A stretch of DNA of 64,000 bases from an uncultured Poribacteria bacterium (lineage in GTDB: Bacteria; Poribacteria; WGA-4E; WGA-3G), in assembly GCA_951828385.1 (NCBI GenBank), contig OX639973.1:1792470-1856469 (forward strand), written 5' to 3'. Shown here in pieces: positions 18,347 through 29,724 of this stretch (positions are counted from its first letter, which is position 1; every line of letters starts with the position of its first letter). The position numbers and the translations under genes were made by a program. The notes under the pieces were generated by a model. It did no database searches. It worked only from the letters and a program-made list of their open reading frames with translations, and was not told the DNA's origin.

Positions 18347-19729
18347 CTAACGTAAAACACCTTGTGCTTTCAATCGTGAAATTAACTCGGCTTGTGTGCC
18401 TTGCCCCTTTGTGGAGTTGCAGGCACCACAGAGGAGTTGGAGGTTATCCTCGTGGTCGGTGCCGCCTTGCGATTGTGGCACGATGTGGTCAACCGTCATG
18501 TTCCGAAACGGAAATTGTGTTCTGCACCCGTTACATAAGCCTTCCTGCTTACCGAACAGCGTATGCTTGTGTGTACGATAATTGGGTAACTTCTCACTCC
18601 GTTTCGGGATGTCCGTGCGGTGGATAACGTCTCCGAAAATTCCGATTTCTTTCTTTAACCGTACTTGCACAAGATCAACGGCTTTCGGGGATATGTCAAT
18701 ACCGATCCAGTACCGTTGTAGCCGTTCTGCCGCGACACAGGTTGTGGCACACCCACAGAACGGATCTAATACAATATCTCCCTCATTGCTGGATGCTTTG
18801 ATGATGCGCTCTAATAACGCGACAGGTTTTTGGGTGGGATAACCTGTCCGTTCTTCTCCCGCAGGTGGAAGGACATCATCCCAAATATTACCATAGGACG
18901 CGCCTTTATAATCCTTTAGATACTTCCGCCTCTCCAGCTTTCCATCTGGACGAATAACGATGTTTCCTTTTTCATATTCCTCTTCCAAACGTTCTTTGCT
19001 TAACCGCCATCCAGATGGATGCGGATTGACAAATCCGCGCCATTCATAACAAAGATTTGGACGCTCACCCATATTTGGTGTGCGCCAAATATGGGCTGAG
19101 TCATTGTAATACCTTTGCCCGTTCTCGTCAACGTGCTTGAATTTTTTCAGGATTTCAGATTCTGTCAACTCTCTTTCTGGACGCAACGATGTAGATGAAG
19201 ATGCTGCATAATACAAGAGCATATCAGCATTGTTTCCCCACCGTAAACTGCGATGCTGGGATCCTTTTTGTGTAGATGTTGCACGCCTCCATGTGATTTC
19301 AGACCTATAGTTGTTTTTTCCGAAAATGCTGTCCATGGTAACTTTCAAATAATGGCTTGCAGTCGGGTCGCAGTGCAAGTATATGCTACCAGTCTTTTTG
19401 AGGACGCGCTTCATCTCTAACAACCGCACTGCCATCATAATCAAATAAGACTTCATGCCTTTGCCGTGTGTGAGCTCGGCTGCGTCTATTGCCTGATACA
19501 AGGCAGGTTCGCGGTCAGCAATTTCGCCATGCCATGCGTTGTCTACATCAGACAGCGTCCACGTGTCTTTGAAGGCTGCGCCTGCTGCTTCGCTCCCGAT
19601 GGGTGCAGAATAGTTCCGATTGGAATTGAAAGGCGGGTCAAGATAAATCAGATCAACGGATTCGGTGTCTATGCCTCGCAGGACCGGTAGATTGTCGTTA
19701 GAGAAAACGGTTCGGTTTTTGACGTTCAT
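18347..19729 (-). CDS. Beta-class DNA methyltransferase fused to a C-terminal HNH nuclease
   Basis: Residues 1-365 form an N6-adenine/N4-cytosine methyltransferase of the beta class: motif IV DPPF (31-34) lies N-terminal, then the target-recognition region, then GYPTQKP and motif I DPFCGCATT (322-330). Residues about 390-445 form an HNH domain with zinc cysteines C399, C402, C434, C437 and core DHIVP (D414, H415) and N429. Both activities in one chain suggest a single-gene restriction-modification or nick-and-mark function, but cleavage is inferred. It is flanked by unrelated genes; no separate restriction or specificity gene was seen. Confidence 0.88.
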   Translation of the reverse strand: MNVKNRTVFSNDNLPVLRGIDTESVDLIYLDPPFNSNRNYSAPIGSEAAGAAFKDTWTLSDVDNAWHGEIADREPALYQAIDAAELTHGKGMKSYLIMMAVRLLEMKRVLKKTGSIYLHCDPTASHYLKVTMDSIFGKNNYRSEITWRRATSTQKGSQHRSLRWGNNADMLLYYAASSSTSLRPERELTESEILKKFKHVDENGQRYYNDSAHIWRTPNMGERPNLCYEWRGFVNPHPSGWRLSKERLEEEYEKGNIVIRPDGKLERRKYLKDYKGASYGNIWDDVLPPAGEERTGYPTQKPVALLERIIKASSNEGDIVLDPFCGCATTCVAAERLQRYWIGIDISPKAVDLVQVRLKKEIGIFGDVIHRTDIPKRSEKLPNYRTHKHTLFGKQEGLCNGCRTQFPFRNMTVDHIVPQSQGGTDHEDNLQLLCGACNSTKGQGTQAELISRLKAQGVLR

Positions 19730-20382: not shown

Positions 20383-21576
20383 TTATTCCAACGCCTTTTT
20401 AATTCGATCTAACCCACGGTTAATCTCTGTCAACGAGGTCGCGAAGGAGAGGCGCAAATGGTTATCTGCACCGAACCCGTTGCCCGGCACAACACCGACT
20501 CCTGCTGAATTGAGCAGATAATCGGTGATATCCATTGAACCCTCAATCTTCTGTCCACCGATTGTTCTGCCGTAATGTTCAGAAAAATCGGGGAAGATGT
20601 AGAACGCGCCCTGCGGTTTGACATAACTGACCCCGTTGATCTCGTCAAAACGTTGGCAAATGACATCTCGGCGTTCTTCAAACGCTTTTCGCATCGCTTC
20701 GACAGCATCCTGTGATTTATTGTCATTGAGTGCAACGACAGCGGCTTTCTGCGCGATAGATGTCGGATTTGAAGTACTGTGCGATTGGATACGCGACATC
20801 GCTGAGACTGCATCTTCGGGACCCGCAGTATACCCAATCCGCCACCCTGTCATCGAGTAGGCTTTTGATACGCCGTTGACAACAAAGGTAATCGCTTTCG
20901 TCTCCGCGTTAAAAGAAGCCGGACTCTGATGCGTCGCACCGTCATAAAGCAGTGCCTCATAAATTTCATCAGAGATGAGATAGACCTGATGTTTGACAGC
21001 GAGATCGGCGATTGCCTTGAGTGTGTCCAGATCGTAGGTGGTCCCTGTCGGATTACTCGGACTGTTAACCAGGATCGCCTTCGTTTTTGAGGTGATCGCT
21101 GCTTCAACCTGATCCGGTACCATGCAGAAATTCTGTGCCGGTGTTGTCTCAATGACGCGCGGCACCGCGCCTGCAAGCTTAATCTGTTCCGGGTAGCTGA
21201 CCCAATACGGTGCAGCAAAGATAACTTCGTCACCCGGATCACAGATCGCTTGGAAGATGTTATAGATAGTATGTTTGGCACCACACGAAACGATAACTTG
21301 CGAAGGTTCATAACGCAACCCATTATCGCGTTTAAATTTCTCTGTGATTGCCTCGCGAAGTTCGGGCGTACCGGGGACGGGGGTATATTTTGTAAACCCC
21401 GCATCAAGTGCAGCGATTGCGGCTTGCTTGATATAATCGGGTGTATCAAAATCGGGTTCGCCTGCCCCAAATTTGACGACATCTACGCCATCAGCGATCA
21501 ACGCATTAATCTTCGCGGTGATCGCCAAAGTGGACGATGGCGTTACGTTTTGACTCCGTTGTGATAATGAAATCAT
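20383..21576 (-). CDS. aspC: Class I aminotransferase, aspartate type
   Basis: This 397-aa PLP enzyme has the fold-type I landmarks: FGAGEPDFDTP, SCGAKHTIYN, NSPSNPTGT, SDEIYE (Asp203 for the pyridine N), VNGVSKAYSMTGWRIGY (Lys238, Schiff base), and a C-terminal arginine in LRLSFATS. It fits the aspartate/prephenate aminotransferase clade (subgroup Ib). The gene symbol is family-level only. AAGGAGAACC lies upstream of the ATG. The ribosome-binding site plus the first 35-45 codons occur twice more, at 21896-22065 and 25594-25740, always in the same orientation. Confidence 0.92.
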   Translation of the reverse strand: MISLSQRSQNVTPSSTLAITAKINALIADGVDVVKFGAGEPDFDTPDYIKQAAIAALDAGFTKYTPVPGTPELREAITEKFKRDNGLRYEPSQVIVSCGAKHTIYNIFQAICDPGDEVIFAAPYWVSYPEQIKLAGAVPRVIETTPAQNFCMVPDQVEAAITSKTKAILVNSPSNPTGTTYDLDTLKAIADLAVKHQVYLISDEIYEALLYDGATHQSPASFNAETKAITFVVNGVSKAYSMTGWRIGYTAGPEDAVSAMSRIQSHSTSNPTSIAQKAAVVALNDNKSQDAVEAMRKAFEERRDVICQRFDEINGVSYVKPQGAFYIFPDFSEHYGRTIGGQKIEGSMDITDYLLNSAGVGVVPGNGFGADNHLRLSFATSLTEINRGLDRIKKALE

Positions 21577-21624: not shown

Positions 21625-21867
21625 TTACTCATTTTTCAAATAGTATCGGGCACGAGATTTAGCAAGACGCATCAGGTGTTCAAGTTGTAAACAATGATTG
21701 AGTTCTGCCGTTTCTTCAGAGGTGAGTCCCGTTGTCTTCTCGCGATGGATGAGATCTGCAATACGCTCCTTCGCATCTTCGGATGGACAAAAGTCTATTA
21801 TATTTTCAGGGGTCGTCCCTGCCGCAATAAAATCAACAATTTCTTGATACGCAGGTGATGTATACAT
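21625..21867 (-). CDS. Small conserved protein, antitoxin-like size
   Basis: The 80-aa soluble protein opens MYTSPAYQEIVDFIAAGTTP and ends in a basic helix (LMRLAKSRARYYLKNE). It is wholly helical in character, with SEDAKERIADLIHREKTTGL in the middle. I recall similar proteins in cyanobacteria and Poribacteria but with no assigned function. It is the only gene between the true aspC start and the first aspC 5' duplicate, so it is the sole content of the first cassette. GAGGAGAATTC precedes the ATG. A regulatory role is a guess. Confidence 0.72.
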   Translation of the reverse strand: MYTSPAYQEIVDFIAAGTTPENIIDFCPSEDAKERIADLIHREKTTGLTSEETAELNHCLQLEHLMRLAKSRARYYLKNE

Positions 21868-22103: not shown

Positions 22104-22440
22104 GGTGAGGTTTCTATATCTCACCATAAGTGTCAATTTTAGAAAAAACCGTGTCGTCCTGTAGGTTGGGTTGAACGGGTACCCTCAAAACTCTGAAAAG
22201 TAACACAAACCTAAACTCTCTCCATAGATCGGACACGAAACAAAAACCGAGAGAAACCCAACGCCTTAGCGGTTTCTGAGATCCTGACGGTGTGAAGTTG
22301 GGTTTCACTGTGTTCTTGGTTACAGATGACAACCCACTGGATTTGAGAGGTATTTGGGAAACATATCTGCCTTCTGAGTTCCGTTCAACCCAACCTACAG
22401 TACTAAATTGACACCTATGGTGAGGTTTCTATATCTCACC
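22104..22440. mobile_element. MITE-like element with long inverted ends and 22-bp flanking direct repeats
   Basis: The element (22126-22418, 293 bp) begins ATAAGTGTCAATTTTAG and ends CTAAATTGACACCTAT; a second block CTGTAGGTTGGGTTGAACGG inside the left end is matched by its reverse complement inside the right end. It is bracketed by identical 22-bp direct repeats (22104-22125 and 22419-22440) that begin GGTGAG and end CTCACC, themselves palindromic. An inner inverted pair GAAACCCAAC / GTTGGGTTTC is also present. No transposase is encoded, so mobility would need an enzyme in trans. Confidence 0.78.
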
Positions 22441-22447
22441 GTGTCAA

Positions 22448-23776
22448 TCATTCCACGCGAATAAGCGGTCTCAAATTCTCTAACGTTGTTGTGCCAATGC
22501 CCTTGACTTTGGTAATATCATCCACAGAATTGAAATTGCCGTGCTTTTCGCGGTATTCAATAATGTCTTGTGCCTTCTTTGTGCCGATCCCAGGAAGTTT
22601 TTGAAGCTCCTCAACAGAAGCAGTATTGATATTGATTGCAACAGGTAGTGGTGAGGATGAATCTTCCCAGACTACCGGTTTATCCGACGGTGTTTCTGGT
22701 TTAGATGGCAAACGGTGCCGCATCTCGTTTTTCTTGTGAAGTGCGCTGTTTTCACTTTTCAAACGTGAAACTTTAGAATTTAGAGTTTCGATTTGCGTAT
22801 TCTTTTCATGTAGTTGTTTTTGCAACTTATCTTTTTCATCCTGAATCTCATCTACTTTTCCTTGCAGGATTTTTTTCTCCCGTCGGAGGGATTCATTTTC
22901 CTTTTCCGACATTATCGTACCCGCTATTGAAGATGGAGAATTTTCATCTAATCGTTTCTGCAACACTTGAATTTGGCTAATAAGTTCCTTGTTCTCGCTC
23001 ACGAGTTTGTTTTGTTTGTTTACCAGTACCGCCAGAATTGCGATACAGATACACATAGCCACGCTTAAAACACCAGCGATATATTGCCAAGAACGACTAA
23101 TCTGTAAGTTAGTTGATTGTATTTCGCGCTTTTTTTTCTCCAACCTCTCAACTTCGTTTTCTAATTCAGTTTTTTCTGCCTTTAATTGATTAACTTTTTG
23201 TTCAAGGCGACCATGCGTCTTAGTTTCCGTTCTGTTTCTCTCTATCAGTTTTTCATTGTTTTGTTTAAATCGCTCAATCTCAATTTCGAGTCTATATCTC
23301 TCTTCACGCATGGACTCTATGGAGCATTGTAAAAGGGTTTCTTTCTCGAATTGATTACGCGTAAGTTTCTTAAATTGATTCCGCCTTAGATTTTCATAAA
23401 ATTCCCAATCATTGGGGGTCGTGCTGTTCGCAAAAACCCCAAACTGTGTATCAGTTGCACAGAGATAAGCCTTCAGTTGCTCATGACCGTAAGTTACGAC
23501 ACCGGTTCGTTTGCACTCTATAATAGCGATAAAATTTTCCGCCTTATCAAGAAGCACAATATCCGCTCTGCGATTGTCGACCCCCATCTGAATTCCACGT
23601 TCTATATCAATAAAAAATTCCTGAAACTCAGGTTTAGAAAAATAATTGATAGCAGCTTCTACGATTATAGTCTCCCGTGGTGCTTCTATGCGACACATAG
23701 GACAAGACTGAAAACGCGGATAACGAGGTTGGGAACGTGAGTGCAAACAACACAGTACTGTGTCTAGGGTTCTCAT
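22448..23776 (-). CDS. Membrane-anchored PD-(D/E)XK nuclease-like protein with coiled coils and a C-terminal HhH domain
   Basis: Domain order in the 442-aa protein: an N-terminal cysteine cluster (CCLHS, CPMC); a PD-(D/E)XK fold of the HSDR_N type (RRADIVLLD, IIECKR: Asp72, Glu87, Lys89; then HEQLKAYLCATDTQFGVFAN); coiled coil (about 155-225); one membrane helix (231-252); a second coiled coil (about 253-355); and a ComEA-like double helix-hairpin-helix (about 380-440, ININTASVEELQKLPGIGTK). The nuclease side and the HhH side lie on opposite sides of the membrane helix. Its nuclease part is related to that of 25725-26738. DNA uptake or defence are possible roles; neither is proved. Confidence 0.82.
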   Translation of the reverse strand: MRTLDTVLCCLHSRSQPRYPRFQSCPMCRIEAPRETIIVEAAINYFSKPEFQEFFIDIERGIQMGVDNRRADIVLLDKAENFIAIIECKRTGVVTYGHEQLKAYLCATDTQFGVFANSTTPNDWEFYENLRRNQFKKLTRNQFEKETLLQCSIESMREERYRLEIEIERFKQNNEKLIERNRTETKTHGRLEQKVNQLKAEKTELENEVERLEKKKREIQSTNLQISRSWQYIAGVLSVAMCICIAILAVLVNKQNKLVSENKELISQIQVLQKRLDENSPSSIAGTIMSEKENESLRREKKILQGKVDEIQDEKDKLQKQLHEKNTQIETLNSKVSRLKSENSALHKKNEMRHRLPSKPETPSDKPVVWEDSSSPLPVAININTASVEELQKLPGIGTKKAQDIIEYREKHGNFNSVDDITKVKGIGTTTLENLRPLIRVE

Positions 23777-23794: not shown

Positions 23795-23845
23795 TTATCT
23801 GAATCGCTCAAGCACTCTTTTGTGAAGCAGAGACCGAGACCTCAT
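23795..23845 (-). pseudogene. Decayed partner ORF overlapping the DUF433 gene
   Basis: A 16-codon frame starts in the ATGA overlap with the DUF433 stop and reads MRSRSLLHKRVLERFR-stop. In the second DUF433 copy (27864) the same overlap starts MRPLFLLDEAELSEMR. DUF433 genes are normally followed by a DUF5615 toxin beginning M+FLLDE; this looks like a degenerate remnant of that partner. The remnant reading is inference from two short peptides. Confidence 0.4.
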
Positions 23846-24204
23846 AAGGTATCTACCGGTTGGGTAGACTTTCTTTTTGCCTCAAGCAATTCTTGGGAAG
23901 CCTTGGCAAAGCGTTCCCGCAATTCAACCACGAAAGGTGAAGGGGTCTGTCGTTGTTCCTGCTCCGCTGCCTCGTCAAGTTGCCGCACGCGTTCAAGATA
24001 TGCTTCCACTTCCTCTGTTTTCGCCAAATAATAGAGGATAGTTGCGTGTATTTTTTCAAGACTTAAGGTCGGATAACGTAGCAGAATCTCTTCCGGACTC
24101 GCGCCCTCCAGATAATCTTCCAACACAATCTCAATATCAATGCGATTGCCTTTGATCCGAATGACATCTTCTTGAACGAAGTCAAAGTAATCTTCCAGTT
24201 CCAT
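23842..24204 (-). CDS. DUF433 antitoxin-like protein, copy 1
   Basis: The 120-aa protein carries the DUF433 core: an N-terminal VIRIKGNRIDIEIVLEDYLE segment, GASPEEILLRYPTLSLEKIH (winged-helix type), and a charged C-terminal helix (EAAEQEQ...LLEAKRKS). DUF433 proteins are typically the antitoxin half of a pair with DUF5615 toxins. Here the partner is missing or reduced to a 16-codon remnant overlapping by ATGA. The gene is about 90% identical at DNA level to 27864-28226. Confidence 0.8.
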   Translation of the reverse strand: MELEDYFDFVQEDVIRIKGNRIDIEIVLEDYLEGASPEEILLRYPTLSLEKIHATILYYLAKTEEVEAYLERVRQLDEAAEQEQRQTPSPFVVELRERFAKASQELLEAKRKSTQPVDTL

Positions 24205-24292: not shown

Positions 24293-25222
24293 TCAACTCC
24301 CATTTGATGCCAAAAGGGTTTTGAATTCATCAAGGCTATTTACCTGCAACACTGCGCGGCGCAAATCTTTGAGACGCTGCAACTCTTCAATGGCTTCAAG
24401 CATCGGCTTTAATGTTTGGACACCGCTCTCGCGGAATTGAATCTCCAGGGCTTCAATAATGCCTTCAATGGTACTTTCTCGCGCGCCTTGCTCAATACCT
24501 TGCTCGATACCTTGCTGTAGGATATATCGGTAAGTTGATGATTCTAACATGGGTCCCTCCAACAGATGGCGGATTTCGGCAGGATCGACGATCAAACCGC
24601 TCAAAATCCATTGCCATATCAATAAATTATTCTGTAGATCCGGAGCAAGTGGGAGGGCAAGCGTCATTTTATGACACTGCTCAATCCATCCAACCTCGGA
24701 TACGCCTTCCGGGGATTGCATCAACGGCGTAAACGCTATCAGACTGGTCTGATCCGTGTCAAAAATGGATTGTCCATCAAACTCGCTCAGCCGGACCACC
24801 TGATACTCTATTAGCACTTTGTGTCCCAGAAAGTTTTGGCGATACTCGCCCGGGTCGTTCCCACCGGCATCTGAACGGAGATAAACGGTAAAAGACAAAA
24901 TCGGCAAACCGTATCTTTCAAAGCACCTTCCGAAATAGCCGACCTTACGCTTCAGTATCTCTGGTGCACTCTCGCGACTCACTTGGAACTCAATATGCAC
25001 CAAGACCTCTCTATCGTCAATCTCTGCCTTCGATAAAGTATCCATGCGTCGTATTTCAACCGTTGGCAGTTCTGTCTCAAGTTGTTCTACGAACTTCAGT
25101 CCGGGGATATTGGTTAATTTTTTCAATAAATCTTCGGCGAATGTCCCGAAGATGTCTTTACTCACGATGTCGAACCGGTTGTGCGGTAAGTTTTCCCAAA
25201 ATTCGTGTAAGATATTTTGCAT
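24293..25222 (-). CDS. Rpn/YhgA-like PD-(D/E)XK nuclease family protein
   Basis: The 309-aa protein has the Rpn/YhgA-like core: an N-terminal helical region (DIVSKDIFGTFAEDLLKKL), PD-(D/E)XK core ending VLVHIEFQVS (Glu-x-Gln), FGRCFERYGLPILSFTVYL, and later an IEQGIEQGIEQGA linker. Rpn proteins promote RecA-independent recombination and are associated with transposases. Helical residues 225-300 form a coiled C-terminal tail. It lies in the aspC-bounded island. No active-site test is possible from sequence alone, but the E-x-Q variant is usual for this family. Confidence 0.8.
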   Translation of the reverse strand: MQNILHEFWENLPHNRFDIVSKDIFGTFAEDLLKKLTNIPGLKFVEQLETELPTVEIRRMDTLSKAEIDDREVLVHIEFQVSRESAPEILKRKVGYFGRCFERYGLPILSFTVYLRSDAGGNDPGEYRQNFLGHKVLIEYQVVRLSEFDGQSIFDTDQTSLIAFTPLMQSPEGVSEVGWIEQCHKMTLALPLAPDLQNNLLIWQWILSGLIVDPAEIRHLLEGPMLESSTYRYILQQGIEQGIEQGARESTIEGIIEALEIQFRESGVQTLKPMLEAIEELQRLKDLRRAVLQVNSLDEFKTLLASNGS

Positions 25223-25593: not shown

Positions 25594-25728
25594 TCAATTG
25601 CAATCCTTTTCGTCCGATTTAATTTTGACGACATCTACGCCATCAGCGATCAACGCATTAATCTTCGCGGTGATCGTCAAAGTGGACGATGGCGTTACGT
25701 TTTGACACCGTTGTGATAATAAAATCAT
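25594..25728 (-). pseudogene. Duplicate of the aspC 5' end, copy 3 (truncated peptide)
   Basis: The ATG at 25728 overlaps the stop of the upstream nuclease gene (ATGA). The frame reads MILLSQRCQNVTPSSTL... and follows aspC through codon 35 (GVDVVK), then leaves the homology and ends IKSDEKDCN-stop, 44 residues. The aspC-like AAGGAGAAC ribosome-binding site is retained at the end of the upstream gene. It is a partial duplication rather than a functional enzyme. Confidence 0.85.
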
Positions 25729-26738
25729 TCGTTCTCCTTTGAAAATAGATTTTTAAACCAGTTTACGATGCCTCGTTTTTGCAATTCAATTTTCAGGTCC
25801 GAGAGAGGTTTTTCCAGCCTCTGCATCTTTTCTTCAAGAAGGTTGTCTAACTTTCGGTGGATTTCCTCATGCAGTCCGGACTTATAATTTTCCAGCGTCT
25901 CAATCTGCTGTGTGAGATCTGAAGTGCGTTCAGTTAGATTGTGCTCGGTTTGCGTGATCTGCTCAACTGCATCCATCAGTTCGGATTTCTGGTTTTCTAA
26001 TCCAGCAGTAATTTCACCTTTGAGATCTCTAATTTCATCTCTAAGCCGTTCGCGAGTGGTTATTCCGTCACCAACTCCTTCCTTAAATTTAGAAAGGTCA
26101 ATCTCAGGAATGCAGTTTGCACCCCGATTCTCATAAAATTTCCATTGACTTTTATCTACTCTATTTGCAAAAATACCAAAGCGGGTATCAGTTGCAGAGA
26201 GGTAAGACTTCAACTGTTCAATCCCGTGCCCTACATACCCAGCTCCCTTACACTCCGCAATGGCAGCGAAACTCCCATTTCCATCAGCCAACACAACGTC
26301 AGCGATTCCATTGCGAGTTCCAAACTGAATTTGATATTCCCTGTCTGGAGAAAATCCATTAACCTCAAGCTTATCAAAATGATCATAAACCTCATCTGCT
26401 ACTTTAGTTTCATGGTCTGGACTAATCGCGTAACATTCCGGACACAGTTCGTATAACTCATCTGGAGGACGTGGAAGACATGTAGCACACGATTGAAAAT
26501 TCGCAACTTCGCGGAGGCGGTCACATTGGTTCCCACATTGAGAACATCCTGAGCATTGGCACTGCTCCGTGCTATTTTCTGTTATTGGGTCTACACCAGT
26601 AACATCAATTTGATATCGACTCTGTGAAGAATAGATACTAACATTATCTCGGACGCACACGTTATTCCCTACTTGCACTGGGGAACTTATAGATCCGGAG
26701 CGTACACATTTAATCTGAAGCTCTGGTGGACCGCCCAC
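25725..26738 (-). CDS. Second OB fold (end) + zinc cluster + PD-(D/E)XK nuclease + coiled coil; downstream part of a frameshifted gene
   Basis: Within this 337-aa frame: the tail of an OB fold (about 1-50, QVGNNVCVRDNVSIYS, YQIDVTGV); a dense cysteine cluster (about 60-105, CQCSGCSQCGNQC, CATC, CPEC); a PD-(D/E)XK core (D147, E162, K164 in IADVVL...AIAECKG); and a long coiled coil (about 225-315). The GTG at 26738 is not a natural start: the frame stays open upstream to 26819, where it meets the 26780-27163 gene in the -1 frame. Joined, the product would be about 479 aa: OB-OB-zinc-nuclease-coiled coil. Confidence 0.78.
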   Translation of the reverse strand: MGGPPELQIKCVRSGSISSPVQVGNNVCVRDNVSIYSSQSRYQIDVTGVDPITENSTEQCQCSGCSQCGNQCDRLREVANFQSCATCLPRPPDELYELCPECYAISPDHETKVADEVYDHFDKLEVNGFSPDREYQIQFGTRNGIADVVLADGNGSFAAIAECKGAGYVGHGIEQLKSYLSATDTRFGIFANRVDKSQWKFYENRGANCIPEIDLSKFKEGVGDGITTRERLRDEIRDLKGEITAGLENQKSELMDAVEQITQTEHNLTERTSDLTQQIETLENYKSGLHEEIHRKLDNLLEEKMQRLEKPLSDLKIELQKRGIVNWFKNLFSKENE

Positions 26739-26779
26739 GTCGCAGAGATCCCAATTAGAAACTGCAGCTGAAAAAACTG

Positions 26780-27163
26780 CTAAAACTTTACCTTGTATCC
26801 GGATATTTTGCAGTTCTGGTTTTTTGCTACAAGTTTTGATATTTTATTACTTATCTCTGTAACGTCAAACGCCTTCGCGTTAACCCCGTTAACTTGTATG
26901 TCGCTAACGGTGATCTGGTATTGACTAAAGGAAAAAAAAAGCGTAATTTTCCCATCTATGACTACTACCTGTCCTTGTTCCAACGGAGGAGCCATAACGC
27001 CTTTTGGTATGAAACATCTAAGTTTATTCGATTTGTTTATGAGATAAAAAGCATTTGAAGGTCCATCTGTTAATATCTCTACCTCACCCTGTACCAATAT
27101 ATTTCTCTGTATAGTACTTGATAATATATTCGTTATGTCACTCACATTGTAGATAGTTGGCAT
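26780..27163 (-). CDS. OB-fold protein, upstream part of the frameshifted OB-OB-nuclease gene
   Basis: In-frame product of 127 aa. Residues about 1-95 match the OB fold of the exodeoxyribonuclease VII large-subunit N terminus: YNVSDITNILSSTIQRNILV, QGEVEIL, LRCFIPKGVM, GQVVVIDGKITL and QYQITVSDIQ. Residues 98-115 (AFDVTEISNKISKLVAKN) begin a second, tandem OB unit that is cut short in this frame (ends CKISGYKVKF-stop) but continues perfectly in the -1 frame. OB folds bind single-stranded nucleic acid. The full-length product probably needs a -1 shift at codon 115. Confidence 0.78.
   Translation of the reverse strand: MPTIYNVSDITNILSSTIQRNILVQGEVEILTDGPSNAFYLINKSNKLRCFIPKGVMAPPLEQGQVVVIDGKITLFFSFSQYQITVSDIQVNGVNAKAFDVTEISNKISKLVAKNQNCKISGYKVKF
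26819..26825 (-). other. In-phase A_AAA_AAC slippery heptamer (candidate -1 programmed frameshift site)
   Basis: On the minus strand, codons GCA-AAA-AAC of the OB gene (114-115 end) form the classic slippery heptamer A AAA AAC in the correct phase. Slipping back one base gives CCA GAA CTG CAA AAT..., which stays open for 27 codons and enters the nuclease frame. AACTGC starts four bases downstream, with GCAGTT about 35 bases further as a possible stem. The six A residues could also be a sequencing or mutational indel site. Confidence 0.6.
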
Positions 27164-27222: not shown

Positions 27223-27867
27223 TCAGAAGTGATTTTTACTTTTTTGTCCAAGAAAACAGGACAAACGAAATCCGAGGACCGACAGTGCCTTCACGTAACA
27301 TACATACGCTTCCTCTTGGAATAGGAAAAACTGAATAAGTCTCGGCACGGAGTCATCATGTCGCTGTGTCTGTTCCACAAATTCTGTCACGGTTTTCAGC
27401 GCAATAGGTGCTGCCTTTTCAAGCGGGTAGCGAAATGTTCCAGTACTAATAGCCGGAAAAGCAATGGATTGAACGCCGTTTTCCACAGCCAATTGAAGGC
27501 ATTCCCGATGGCAACTCTCGAGCATCTTAGGCTCTCCAATTCCGCCTCCAATCCAAATCGGTCCGACAGTATGAATGATATATTTTGCAGAGAGGTTACC
27601 CGCTGTAGTAATAACAGCTTCACCTGTTTGGCAACCACCGTAGTTTTCGCGAATCTCCTCACATGCACGATCAACCTCGCTACCAGCGGCTTGACGAATT
27701 ACTCGGTCCAAACCGCCTCCCCCGCTGAGAACAAGGTCCGTTGGGTTTACAATAGCATCAACCTCTGCATCCATTATATTGCCATGAATGAGTTCAAGTT
27801 GGGTTGGCATAGGTTTACCTCTCATCTCACTTAGTTCCGCTTCATCAAGGAGAAACAGAGGTCTCAT
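27223..27867 (-). CDS. Macrodomain protein coupled to DUF433
   Basis: The 214-aa protein holds a macrodomain from about residue 20: [63 protein letters not shown]-type loop. The usual NAAN in the first loop is NPTD, so the enzyme may differ in ligand handling. The ATG at 27867 overlaps the DUF433 stop (ATGA). The first 15 residues (MRPLFLLDEAELSEM) look like the start of a DUF5615 toxin rather than a macrodomain; internal ATGs at 27825 or 27810 are alternative starts. ADP-ribose linkage to a toxin-like system is inference. Confidence 0.83.
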   Translation of the reverse strand: MRPLFLLDEAELSEMRGKPMPTQLELIHGNIMDAEVDAIVNPTDLVLSGGGGLDRVIRQAAGSEVDRACEEIRENYGGCQTGEAVITTAGNLSAKYIIHTVGPIWIGGGIGEPKMLESCHRECLQLAVENGVQSIAFPAISTGTFRYPLEKAAPIALKTVTEFVEQTQRHDDSVPRLIQFFLFQEEAYVCYVKALSVLGFRLSCFLGQKSKNHF

Positions 27868-28226
27868 AGGACATCCACCGGTTCAATAGATTTTCTTTTC
27901 GCCTCAAGCAATTCCTGAGAAGCCTTAGCAAAACGTTCCCGCAATTCAACGACGAAAGGCGAAGGATTCCGCAGTTGCTCCTGCTCCGCCGCCTCATCAA
28001 GTTGCCGCACGCGTTCAAGATATGCTTCCACTTCCTCTGTTTTCGCCAAATAATAGAGGATAGTTGCGTGTATTTTTTCAAGACTTAAGGTCGGATAACG
28101 TAGCAGAGTCTCTTCGGGACTCGCGCCCTCCAGATAATCTTCCAACACAATCTCAATATCAATGCGATTGCCTTTGATCCGAATGACATCTTCTTGAACG
28201 AAGTCAAAGTAATTTTCCAGTTCCAT
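27864..28226 (-). CDS. DUF433 antitoxin-like protein, copy 2
   Basis: This 120-aa protein is nearly identical to copy 1 at 23842-24204 (for example VIRIKGNRIDIEIVLEDYLE, GASPEETLLRYPTLSLEKIH), differing mainly in the C-terminal 40 residues (RNPSPF against RQTPSPF; IEPVDVL against TQPVDTL). Its stop overlaps the start of the macrodomain gene by four bases, so the two are translationally coupled. Which protein it would neutralise, if any, is unknown. Confidence 0.8.
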   Translation of the reverse strand: MELENYFDFVQEDVIRIKGNRIDIEIVLEDYLEGASPEETLLRYPTLSLEKIHATILYYLAKTEEVEAYLERVRQLDEAAEQEQLRNPSPFVVELRERFAKASQELLEAKRKSIEPVDVL

Positions 28227-28785: not shown

Positions 28786-29661
28786 TCATAGCGTCTTATC
28801 AAGCTCTTTCAGCAAATTCCGCTGCTTCCGCGACAACGACTTCGGAATCTCCACAACCAACCGGACCCGCAAATCGCCCTTCCGTCCAGAAGCATCCGCC
28901 GCACCTTGCCCACGCAAACGTAATTGCTGTCCCGGTTGCGCACCCGCTGGAACCTTCAGGTCCACATCGCCTGTCAACGTTTGCACCCGAACAGAACCGC
29001 CTAACGCCGCTGTCGTCATAGAGATCTTCGCATCTGTGAGTAGGTCCGCGCCTTCACGAGTCAATGTCGGATGCGACTGTACAGAGACCGTCACCAACAA
29101 GTCGCCAGAAGTACCGATACCGAGGGTTTCGCCGTGTCCCCGAATCCGTAAGGTTTGCCCGTCCTGAATGCCCGGTGGGATTGTCAGCGTAATCCGTTTG
29201 CCTTCGATATTGACCTCTTTCTTACTCCCCAACACCGCATCCGCAAAAGGGATGTTAAGATTCATACGGATGTCACGTCCACGGGTAGGCCCCGTCGTAC
29301 GCCGTTGCCCGAACGCATCGCCGAACGCATCGTCGAATCTACCGAACCCACCGAATCCACCGAACCCGCGCCCGAAAAGATCGTCCAAGTTTATGTGCGA
29401 GAAAATGTCGTCCATATTTTGGTAGCCTTCAAACCCCATACCGTGAACGCCTGCATGCCCGCGGGTATCATAGACACGTCGTTTTTCGGGATCCGAAAGT
29501 ACCGAATACGCATTAGATGCCTCTTTGAACTTCTCTTCCGCCGCTTTATCGCCGGGATTCTTGTCCGGGTGGTACTGGACTGCAAGTTTGCGATAGGCTT
29601 TTTTGATTTCTTCAGGGGTGGCACCTCGGTCAATACCGAGGATTTCATAGTAGTCTCTCAT
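28786..29661 (-). CDS. DnaJ/CbpA-type Hsp40 co-chaperone without zinc finger
   Basis: From ATG 29661 the protein (291 aa) has a J domain with the HPD motif ([14 protein letters not shown]), a Gly/Phe-rich linker (about 75-120, [17 protein letters not shown]), and two beta-barrel substrate-binding domains ([46 protein letters not shown]). The CxxCxGxG zinc repeats of DnaJ are absent, placing it with CbpA/class II Hsp40, which stimulates DnaK. A frame extension to TTG 29706 exists but the J domain begins MRDYYEILG at 29661. The leader is the repeat described at 29662-29724. Confidence 0.93.
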
Positions 29662-29724
29662 ATTTTTAACTATGGCGATTTCTGCTCGGTTTTTCTCCGT
29701 TGTCAAAAAACCGGTTTTTGTTTA
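29662..29724 (-). repeat. Leader repeat upstream of the dnaJ-like gene (third copy)
   Basis: On the minus strand, AAAACCGGTTTTTTGACAAC..., GGAGAAAAACCGAGCAG and CCATAGTTAAAAAT run straight into the ATG. The same blocks, in the same order, end just before the MFS gene (12648-12702). Confidence 0.62.

Follow-up and report, generated by a model that had tools for sequence, protein, structure and literature searches.

SNIPE, as set out in excerpts of the paper describing it, is a nuclease bound to the membrane, where it cuts phage DNA as this is being injected; when its transmembrane (TM) segment is missing, it becomes toxic and attacks the chromosome (PMC13190303). It has an N-terminal TM segment, DUF4041 and a C-terminal GIY-YIG nuclease, its adaptor regions vary among homologues, and self is proposed to be told from non-self by location (PMC13190303). 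The CoCoNuTs, or coiled-coil nuclease tandems, are presented in excerpts of a second paper as a branch of the McrBC type IV systems, with coiled coils and nuclease domains in a restriction setting (PMC11090510). Two further points of reference are ComEA, which has a double helix-hairpin-helix (HhH) domain behind a single membrane helix and no nuclease, and the PD-(D/E)XK nucleases, among them the N-terminal nuclease of HsdR, BpuSI, DrdV and BsaXI.

Here we describe a gene at 22448..23776 on the minus strand of a 64,000-nucleotide stretch of DNA (the window) from an uncultured Poribacteria bacterium. The bacterium is a symbiont of sponges. The predicted product resembles SNIPE in being a single-pass protein with one membrane helix, a nuclease expected in the cytoplasm and a diversified adaptor region, and the proposed discrimination by location is shared with the model put forward below (PMC13190303). 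It differs in having an N-terminal HsdR-type PD-(D/E)XK nuclease and a DNA-binding HhH domain beyond the TM helix; Pfam at E 1e-4 matches four families, three of HhH type and HSDR_N_2, and neither GIY-YIG nor DUF4041 is among them, so that by its domains the protein is not a SNIPE. With ComEA it shares a double HhH of the same fold and the single helix ahead of it, and unlike ComEA it has a nuclease. The PD-(D/E)XK fold and catalytic residues are those of HsdR, BpuSI, DrdV and BsaXI; however, at the same Pfam threshold there is no helicase, methyltransferase or specificity domain, and since the SF2 helicase that follows the nuclease in HsdR is absent and the protein is membrane-anchored, it is by domain content not an HsdR. 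Coiled coils with a nuclease domain are held in common with the CoCoNuTs, whereas Pfam finds no McrB-type domain, in contrast to that McrBC branch. By analogy with SNIPE, the protein may cut phage DNA during injection.

Domain organization of the 22448..23776 gene

The domain order claimed in an earlier note on this DNA agrees with the reading of the open reading frame, with Pfam and with an AlphaFold2 model, and is as follows.

22448..23776, minus strand: whole gene, 442 aa from an ATG; Cys/His cluster, PD-(D/E)XK nuclease, coil, TM helix, coil, (HhH)2
23693..23752, minus strand: Cys/His cluster, residues 9-28 (pattern C-x2-H-x12-C-x2-C); conserved in eight of the nine fetched relatives that have such a head
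23336..23677, minus strand: HsdR-type PD-(D/E)XK nuclease domain, residues 34-147 (Pfam, fold, residues D72, E87, K89 and Q100)
23093..23326, minus strand: first coiled coil, residues 151-228 (helix in the model; heptad test on 155-228)
23021..23086, minus strand: transmembrane helix, residues 231-252 (hydropathy against shuffles)
22718..23011, minus strand: second coiled coil, residues 256-353 (helices in the model; heptad test significant for 291-350 only)
22451..22651, minus strand: ComEA-type double HhH DNA-binding domain, residues 376-442 (Pfam, phmmer, fold and NCBIfam; dN/dS 0.19 against the copy in genome G062)

The head residues C9-x2-H12-x12-C25-x2-C28 may form a zinc site. Among the nine fetched relatives with this head one (L104) has lost a Cys, and in another (L067) the spacer is one residue shorter.

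The nuclease domain matches Pfam HSDR_N_2 (PF13588) over residues 50-122 (E 1.4e-8, 35.2 bits, cut-off 25), and D72, E87-x-K89 and Q100 are all intact. In the AlphaFold2 model, built on a 36-row alignment, the ten-residue mean pLDDT is 92-98 over residues 41-150 and 96-97 over residues 381-440; with a whole-chain pTM of 0.45, the model makes no prediction of how the domains lie relative to one another. The modelled nuclease aligns (VIA-align) with HsdR 3h1t at Z 9.9 (rmsd 4.4, 128 aligned), with BpuSI 3s1s at Z 9.9, with BsaXI 8w2p at Z 9.5 and with DrdV 7lo5 at Z 9.1. By curated cut-off, fold and the D...E-x-K residues the protein belongs to the PD-(D/E)XK (HSDR_N) group, as the earlier note had proposed; profile, catalytic residues and fold rule out a false nuclease call, and DNA cleavage is its predicted activity. 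PADLOC gives no match for the protein at E 1e-3, and at a threshold of 0.01 the coil alone matches JetC (E 0.0053).

The tail matches Pfam HHH_3 over residues 379-440 (E 6.9e-24) and, by phmmer against PDB sequences, ComEA chains. Its model superimposes on Geobacillus stearothermophilus ComEA 8dss at Z 13.0 (rmsd 0.9, 65 aligned, 52% identity; VIA-align), and also resembles Tex proteins, at Z 11.0. The NCBIfam model for the ComEA HhH repeat region, TIGR00426, is reached with 82.5 bits (cut-off 53.1), whereas the full-length comE model TIGR01259 is not (88.1 bits against a cut-off of 152.35); judged by these profiles the protein has a ComEA-type HhH region, yet is not a ComEA.

The membrane helix and its orientation

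The best 19-residue hydropathy is 2.89, a value reached once when the protein was shuffled 20,000 times, which rules out a chance call and bears out the membrane helix of the earlier note. A hydrophobic helix lies at the equivalent place in both other genes with the HhH order (see below), and in the AlphaFold2 model the membrane segment falls within a continuous helix of residues 191-278. Heptad periodicity as high as that of residues 155-228 is found in 1 of 5,000 shuffles, and as high as that of residues 291-350 in none of 5,000; in residues 256-280 it is not significant (501 of 5,000).

That the nuclease and HhH parts lie on opposite sides of the membrane, as the earlier note had it, is likely. 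Since no signal peptide is evident by eye and a single helix follows 230 residues of folded N-terminal sequence, the nuclease would be cytoplasmic and the HhH domain outside the inner membrane; the periplasm is its probable place because the ordinary ComEA of the same genome, a protein of 137 aa, also has one TM helix ahead of its HhH. The charges flanking the helix favour a nuclease-inside orientation in the gene of genome G049 only, and are uninformative in the window gene and in G062, so the positive-inside rule is no proof of topology for two of the three genes.

A nuclease family in Candidatus Poribacteria

Searched alone against 84 genomes of the phylum, the nuclease domain gives matches at E 1e-3 in 59, and a 31-row profile gives matches in 61 of the 84, from four of 21 genera; some of the matches in both counts are weak ones, lying inside RpoB or in open reading frames of about 700 aa. 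With E 1e-16 as the limit, 102 rows from 52 genomes remain. The 80 stretches fetched cover part of all matches and hold 86 nuclease open reading frames from 49 genomes, which together with two window genes make up a family set of 88 members.

Pfam at E 1e-4, among the best 25 of 43 families, finds HSDR_N_2 in 56 of the 88 members, TPR_8 in 17, an XseA-type OB domain (tRNA_anti_2) in 13, DprA in 4, Macro in 4, HHH_3 in 2, DnaJ_C in 2 and RpoB domain 6 in 1, and NCBIfam concurs (XseA 13, DprA 4, Macro 4). Other members end in coiled coils with TM helices, in a tail of four-TM type or, once, in a vWA-like tail (L090; Pfam VWA_2 E 2.6e-5, just below cut-off), and TPR and plain membrane tails are as common among the partners as DNA-handling domains. 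The N-terminal parts of L074, L085 and L161 are unconfirmed PrimPol-like candidates; that of L161 matches Pfam BT4734-like_N below cut-off (E 0.017), and that of L085 has no Pfam match. With PADLOC one of the 88 members matches TerY (E 1.5e-47), 32 match MTase_I and fewer match LmuB and JetC, these being weak or partial matches.

The active-site D, E and K are intact in 80 of 93 scored domains. The losses fall in both DnaJ_C fusions, four of five RpoB-borne copies and seven others, two of which are truncated; one truncated nuclease copy is in G065. The two DnaJ_C-nuclease-DnaJ_C proteins, both beside aspC, have lost the catalytic Glu (L108 3798-4862 and L111 3789-4850). DprA is fused to a nuclease with intact D, E and K in L084, L088, L097 and L127, and as all four genomes (G027, G028, G030 and G083) keep another full-size DprA, the fusion is in none of them the only DprA.

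The wider HSDR_N family occurs beyond Poribacteria. Close relatives of this nuclease module were found only in Candidatus Poribacteria by sequence search: a pattern search of genome_contigs (84,980 species) picked out 80 stretches, of which 34 were confirmed, all 34 from Poribacteria. Within the reach of such scans, which is close relatives only, the nuclease domain has no tblastn match at 1e-3 among 72,556 plasmid and 50,697 phage records, and none of 72 pattern-matching stretches of viral_contigs was confirmed; a phage or plasmid origin is thus unsupported. Recent copying of the domain within the window genome is likewise unsupported, the other copies there being 32-50% identical to the window protein. 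The best-ranked open-licence papers returned by a literature search contain no nuclease-ComEA fusion, no account of this nuclease family and no RpoB insert.

The dnaJ-aspC interval

The gene lies between aspC and dnaJ, which in the window are 7,209 bases apart. The interval is arranged as follows.

20383..21576, minus strand: aspC-like aminotransferase (the name is our reading), one border of the interval
23842..24204, minus strand: DUF433 gene directly upstream of 22448..23776; a second copy is at 27864-28226
24293..25222, minus strand: Rpn-like open reading frame (our label), recurrent in the interval; NCBIfam Rpn E 0.0078, below cut-off, and no Pfam match
25725..27163, minus strand: sister gene, OB-OB-Cys cluster-nuclease-coil, frame-broken into open reading frames 26780-27163 and 25725-26738
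27223..27867, minus strand: Macro-domain gene; four other loci have Macro and nuclease in one fusion
28786..29706, minus strand: dnaJ-like gene (the name is our reading), the other border

Family genes are found at this interval in 23 genomes: the window genome and 22 fetched ones, where they lie beside one or both borders (both borders fall within one fetched stretch for 12 of the 22, and in G062 the borders are on two contigs). The forms present are an OB-nuclease with a separate Macro gene, OB-nuclease-Macro fusions, a Zn-nuclease alone, Zn-nuclease-OB, DnaJ_C-nuclease-DnaJ_C and the HhH type. Fourteen comparison genomes were picked for showing no family gene here, so that absence in them is by choice; dnaJ and aspC are still neighbours in all 14, 59-1,556 bases apart. 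The gap is 93 bases in G061 and 59 in G043, others of the 14 hold DUF433 or Rpn-like genes, and remnants persist as an OB in G052 and a Macro in G082. The dnaJ-aspC interval is therefore one of gain and loss. DUF433 is the sole recognised gene between the borders in four of the 14, and the two DUF433 genes of the window interval are identical at 112 of 120 residues.

The earlier note described the gene at 25725 as an OB gene sharing its nuclease with 22448..23776. The kinship holds and the protein is an OB-nuclease; it is not free-standing, being the 3' part of one OB-OB-nuclease gene that includes the open reading frame at 26780, with a change of frame near position 26820. The 488-aa product of an unbroken relative (L122) aligns in one frame over residues 1-117 and in another over 121-488, and the break may be either biological or a sequencing error. 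The view that the two genes are variants of one system is supported, in that they share a domain family, the interval and exchangeable partners; an OB-nuclease gene accompanies the HhH-order gene at the interval in the window genome and G062, and none is seen there in G049.

Directly beside 22448..23776 (the DUF433 gene was checked and an 80-aa open reading frame at 21625 left out) there is no methyltransferase or PADLOC-matched gene, and none of eight window proteins scanned by Pfam matches an HsdS family. Further away, at 18347-19729, the window has an N6/N4 DNA methyltransferase fused to an HNH domain (Pfam), and G049 has a similar gene beyond aspC. One branch of the family has a nuclease, a TM segment and a Cys-containing tail (L130, L133, L135, L137-L140, L142, L143 and also L132). 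A match to the window methyltransferase lies near it in nine of the ten fetched loci, those in L137 and L139 being short fragments only, and L135 and L140 have Pfam N6_N4_Mtase. This TM-tailed branch is possibly a restriction-modification system with a membrane-bound nuclease.

Just downstream of the gene, at 22156-22403, is a MITE-like element of about 250 bp, with terminal inverted repeats of 23 nt (96% complementary) and enclosed by 22-bp direct repeats at 22104 and 22419. It has 31 matching pieces in the genome, 22 of at least 100 bases; at 2369336 one such piece has the vWA-like nuclease gene about 350 bases away.

Distribution of the HhH version and exchange of modules

The full nuclease-TM-HhH order is present in three of the 84 genomes: the window genome (G000), G062 and G049. 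The G062 copy (L157) is full-length and 84% identical to the window protein, and that in G049 is frame-broken between the nuclease and TM parts and also near the Cys cluster; these two copies rule out an orphan fusion or an accident of assembly. All three genomes keep a separate ordinary ComEA. ComEC was found in each of 15 genomes searched and a PF02481 (DprA) match in 83 of the 84; ComEC and the separate ComEA make DNA uptake plausible, with the fusion as an extra to it.

A tree resting on 62 columns only separates the three HhH tails, as one group (support 90/93, and 94% of 200 bootstrap trees), from 21 ordinary ComEA sequences of the phylum. In the nuclease tree the G049 nuclease falls with the OB-nuclease-Macro branch, and one clade of the three nucleases is rejected (AU p 6.6e-8) in a test on 25 rows of our choice, run after the tree had placed G049 elsewhere. 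The same TM-HhH tail with a different nuclease beneath it suggests that the parts are exchangeable in nature; with its broken frame, the G049 copy may be a leftover of the swap and not a working protein.

A more recent exchange is visible between the window genome and G062, where dS is 0-0.15 in residues 31-270 and 0.49-1.06 in the rest of the tail. In aspC, dnaJ, a kinase gene, asd, the Rpn fragment and ComEA it is 0.61-0.77; RpoB, with 28 residues aligned, is of no use as a baseline. From the low dS relative to tail and flanks, a block of about 700 bases with the nuclease, coil and TM helix was most likely swapped between the two lineages after they split, its boundary being read in steps of 30 codons. 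In this one genome pair the HhH domain is under purifying selection (dN 0.143, dS 0.742, ratio 0.19), and the nuclease, with five synonymous and nine nonsynonymous changes, has counts too small to judge. Against G073, over 146 aligned residues, the nuclease has dN 0.175 and dS 1.6 (near saturation), in the same direction as the HhH.

Proposed function and alternatives

Our leading reading, which is also that of a DNA-entry guard in the earlier note and is held tentatively, is that the product of 22448..23776 is a SNIPE-like, membrane-straddling nuclease that guards a point of DNA entry and is aimed by a domain borrowed from DNA uptake. A long helix would cross the inner membrane once, with the HsdR-type nuclease and Cys/His head in the cytoplasm and, carried into the periplasm by a coiled-coil stalk, the ComEA-type HhH. 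This domain would bind periplasmic DNA (phage, transforming or plasmid) without sequence specificity, binding would retain the protein where DNA enters, probably in clusters formed through the coils, and the nuclease would cut the bound DNA as it emerges inside. Being fixed in the membrane and dependent on DNA beyond it for its concentration, the enzyme would spare the chromosome. Natural transformation brings only one strand into the cytoplasm, and since single-stranded DNA suits an HsdR-type cutter poorly, phage or plasmid DNA would be the better target.

The intact nuclease signature and fold, the ComEA-like HhH under purifying selection, the membrane helix and the precedent of SNIPE speak for a guard. 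Relatives carry other DNA-binding or uptake and recombination domains (ExoVII-type OB in 13 of 88, DprA in 4 of 88), and since the genomes keep a separate ComEA or full-size DprA, these domains look like extra copies joined to a cutter; we read them as uptake domains re-used to aim a nuclease. The occupancy of the interval, its remnants, the broken HhH frame in G049 and the truncated nuclease in G065 are defence-like genetics. Against a guard we count that the charges around the helix are uninformative in two of the three genes, that PADLOC matches neither the whole protein at E 1e-3 nor its DUF433 neighbour, that action of both end domains on one DNA molecule is an assumption, that TPR and membrane tails are equally common, and that the order is found in only three of 84 genomes. 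If true, this would be a second, unrelated solution to the problem solved by SNIPE, that of finding foreign DNA by its place of entry, with a receptor domain of natural transformation serving as bait; one nuclease with many partner domains would also offer a natural series for testing how nucleases are aimed.

A wider reading, possible and on the unlikely side, is that Poribacteria hold a combinatorial nuclease arsenal, in which one HsdR-type cutter receives the ComEA HhH, DprA or ExoVII OB at the dnaJ-aspC hotspot and elsewhere, each variant waiting at a different step on the path of incoming DNA (periplasm, membrane exit, cytoplasmic single-stranded DNA).

The main rival to the guard, itself unlikely, is that the shuffling is the story: domains are reassorted in a recombination hotspot, selection acts on the nuclease module (selfish, or through conflict between strains), and the HhH-TM part is a mere tether or by-product. 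One tail on two nuclease lineages, the exchanged nuclease-coil-TM block, the TPR and plain membrane tails and the presence of the module even inside RpoB all fit this. It sits poorly, however, with the purifying selection on the HhH domain, with the presence of TM helix and HhH in all three genes, and with the recurrence of OB, DprA and HhH among the partners.

A component of DNA uptake, also raised in the earlier note, would have the outer HhH pass DNA to the transporter and the inner nuclease trim it for nutrition or recombination. The ComEA-type HhH, the near-general ComEC and PF02481 matches and the DprA-nuclease fusions in four genomes speak for it; yet the order is rare and in one genome frame-broken, the DprA-fusion genomes each keep another full-size DprA, and because the three HhH-order genomes keep an ordinary ComEA we judge such a role quite improbable.

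Placing both end domains in the cytoplasm, with the helix no simple anchor or the topology reversed and DNA tied to the membrane for cutting or repair, is highly doubtful. The flanking charges leave the orientation unfixed in two of the three copies, and the HhH also matches Tex proteins, which are cytoplasmic; but one helix of 22 residues is too short to bring the chain back to the same side, and the ordinary ComEA of the window genome likewise carries its HhH behind a single TM helix.

A membrane-bound restriction enzyme paired with a DNA methyltransferase such as the 18347-19729 gene is the least probable, and very improbable indeed: the methyltransferase matches near the TM-tailed branch and beyond aspC in G049 point that way, but in the window aspC lies between the two genes, and the other fetched dnaJ-aspC loci, in stretches that differ in reach, match by a fragment in L075 only.

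A degenerate nuclease copy within RpoB

In the window's genus 36 genomes have an RpoB match; the frame is 1,709-1,817 aa long in 32 of them, and the match to RpoB domain 6 is split in all 36. The insert carries a degenerate copy of the family nuclease domain (profile-profile probability 99.0, E 2.2e-18), and that of the window genome (G000:C1:5318000-5326000, L195) scores 46 bits to the nuclease profile. A nuclease match is present in all five RpoB read within the genus and in none of six outside it. Inserts were noted in L195, L196, L201 and L203; among the 12 stretches fetched for RpoB, that of G062 is without a complete RpoB open reading frame and that of G030 is no rpoB place. The RpoB of G072 (L126, 2256 aa) has two further nuclease copies, one with D, E and K intact; the two are nearest to a tandem pair in G082.
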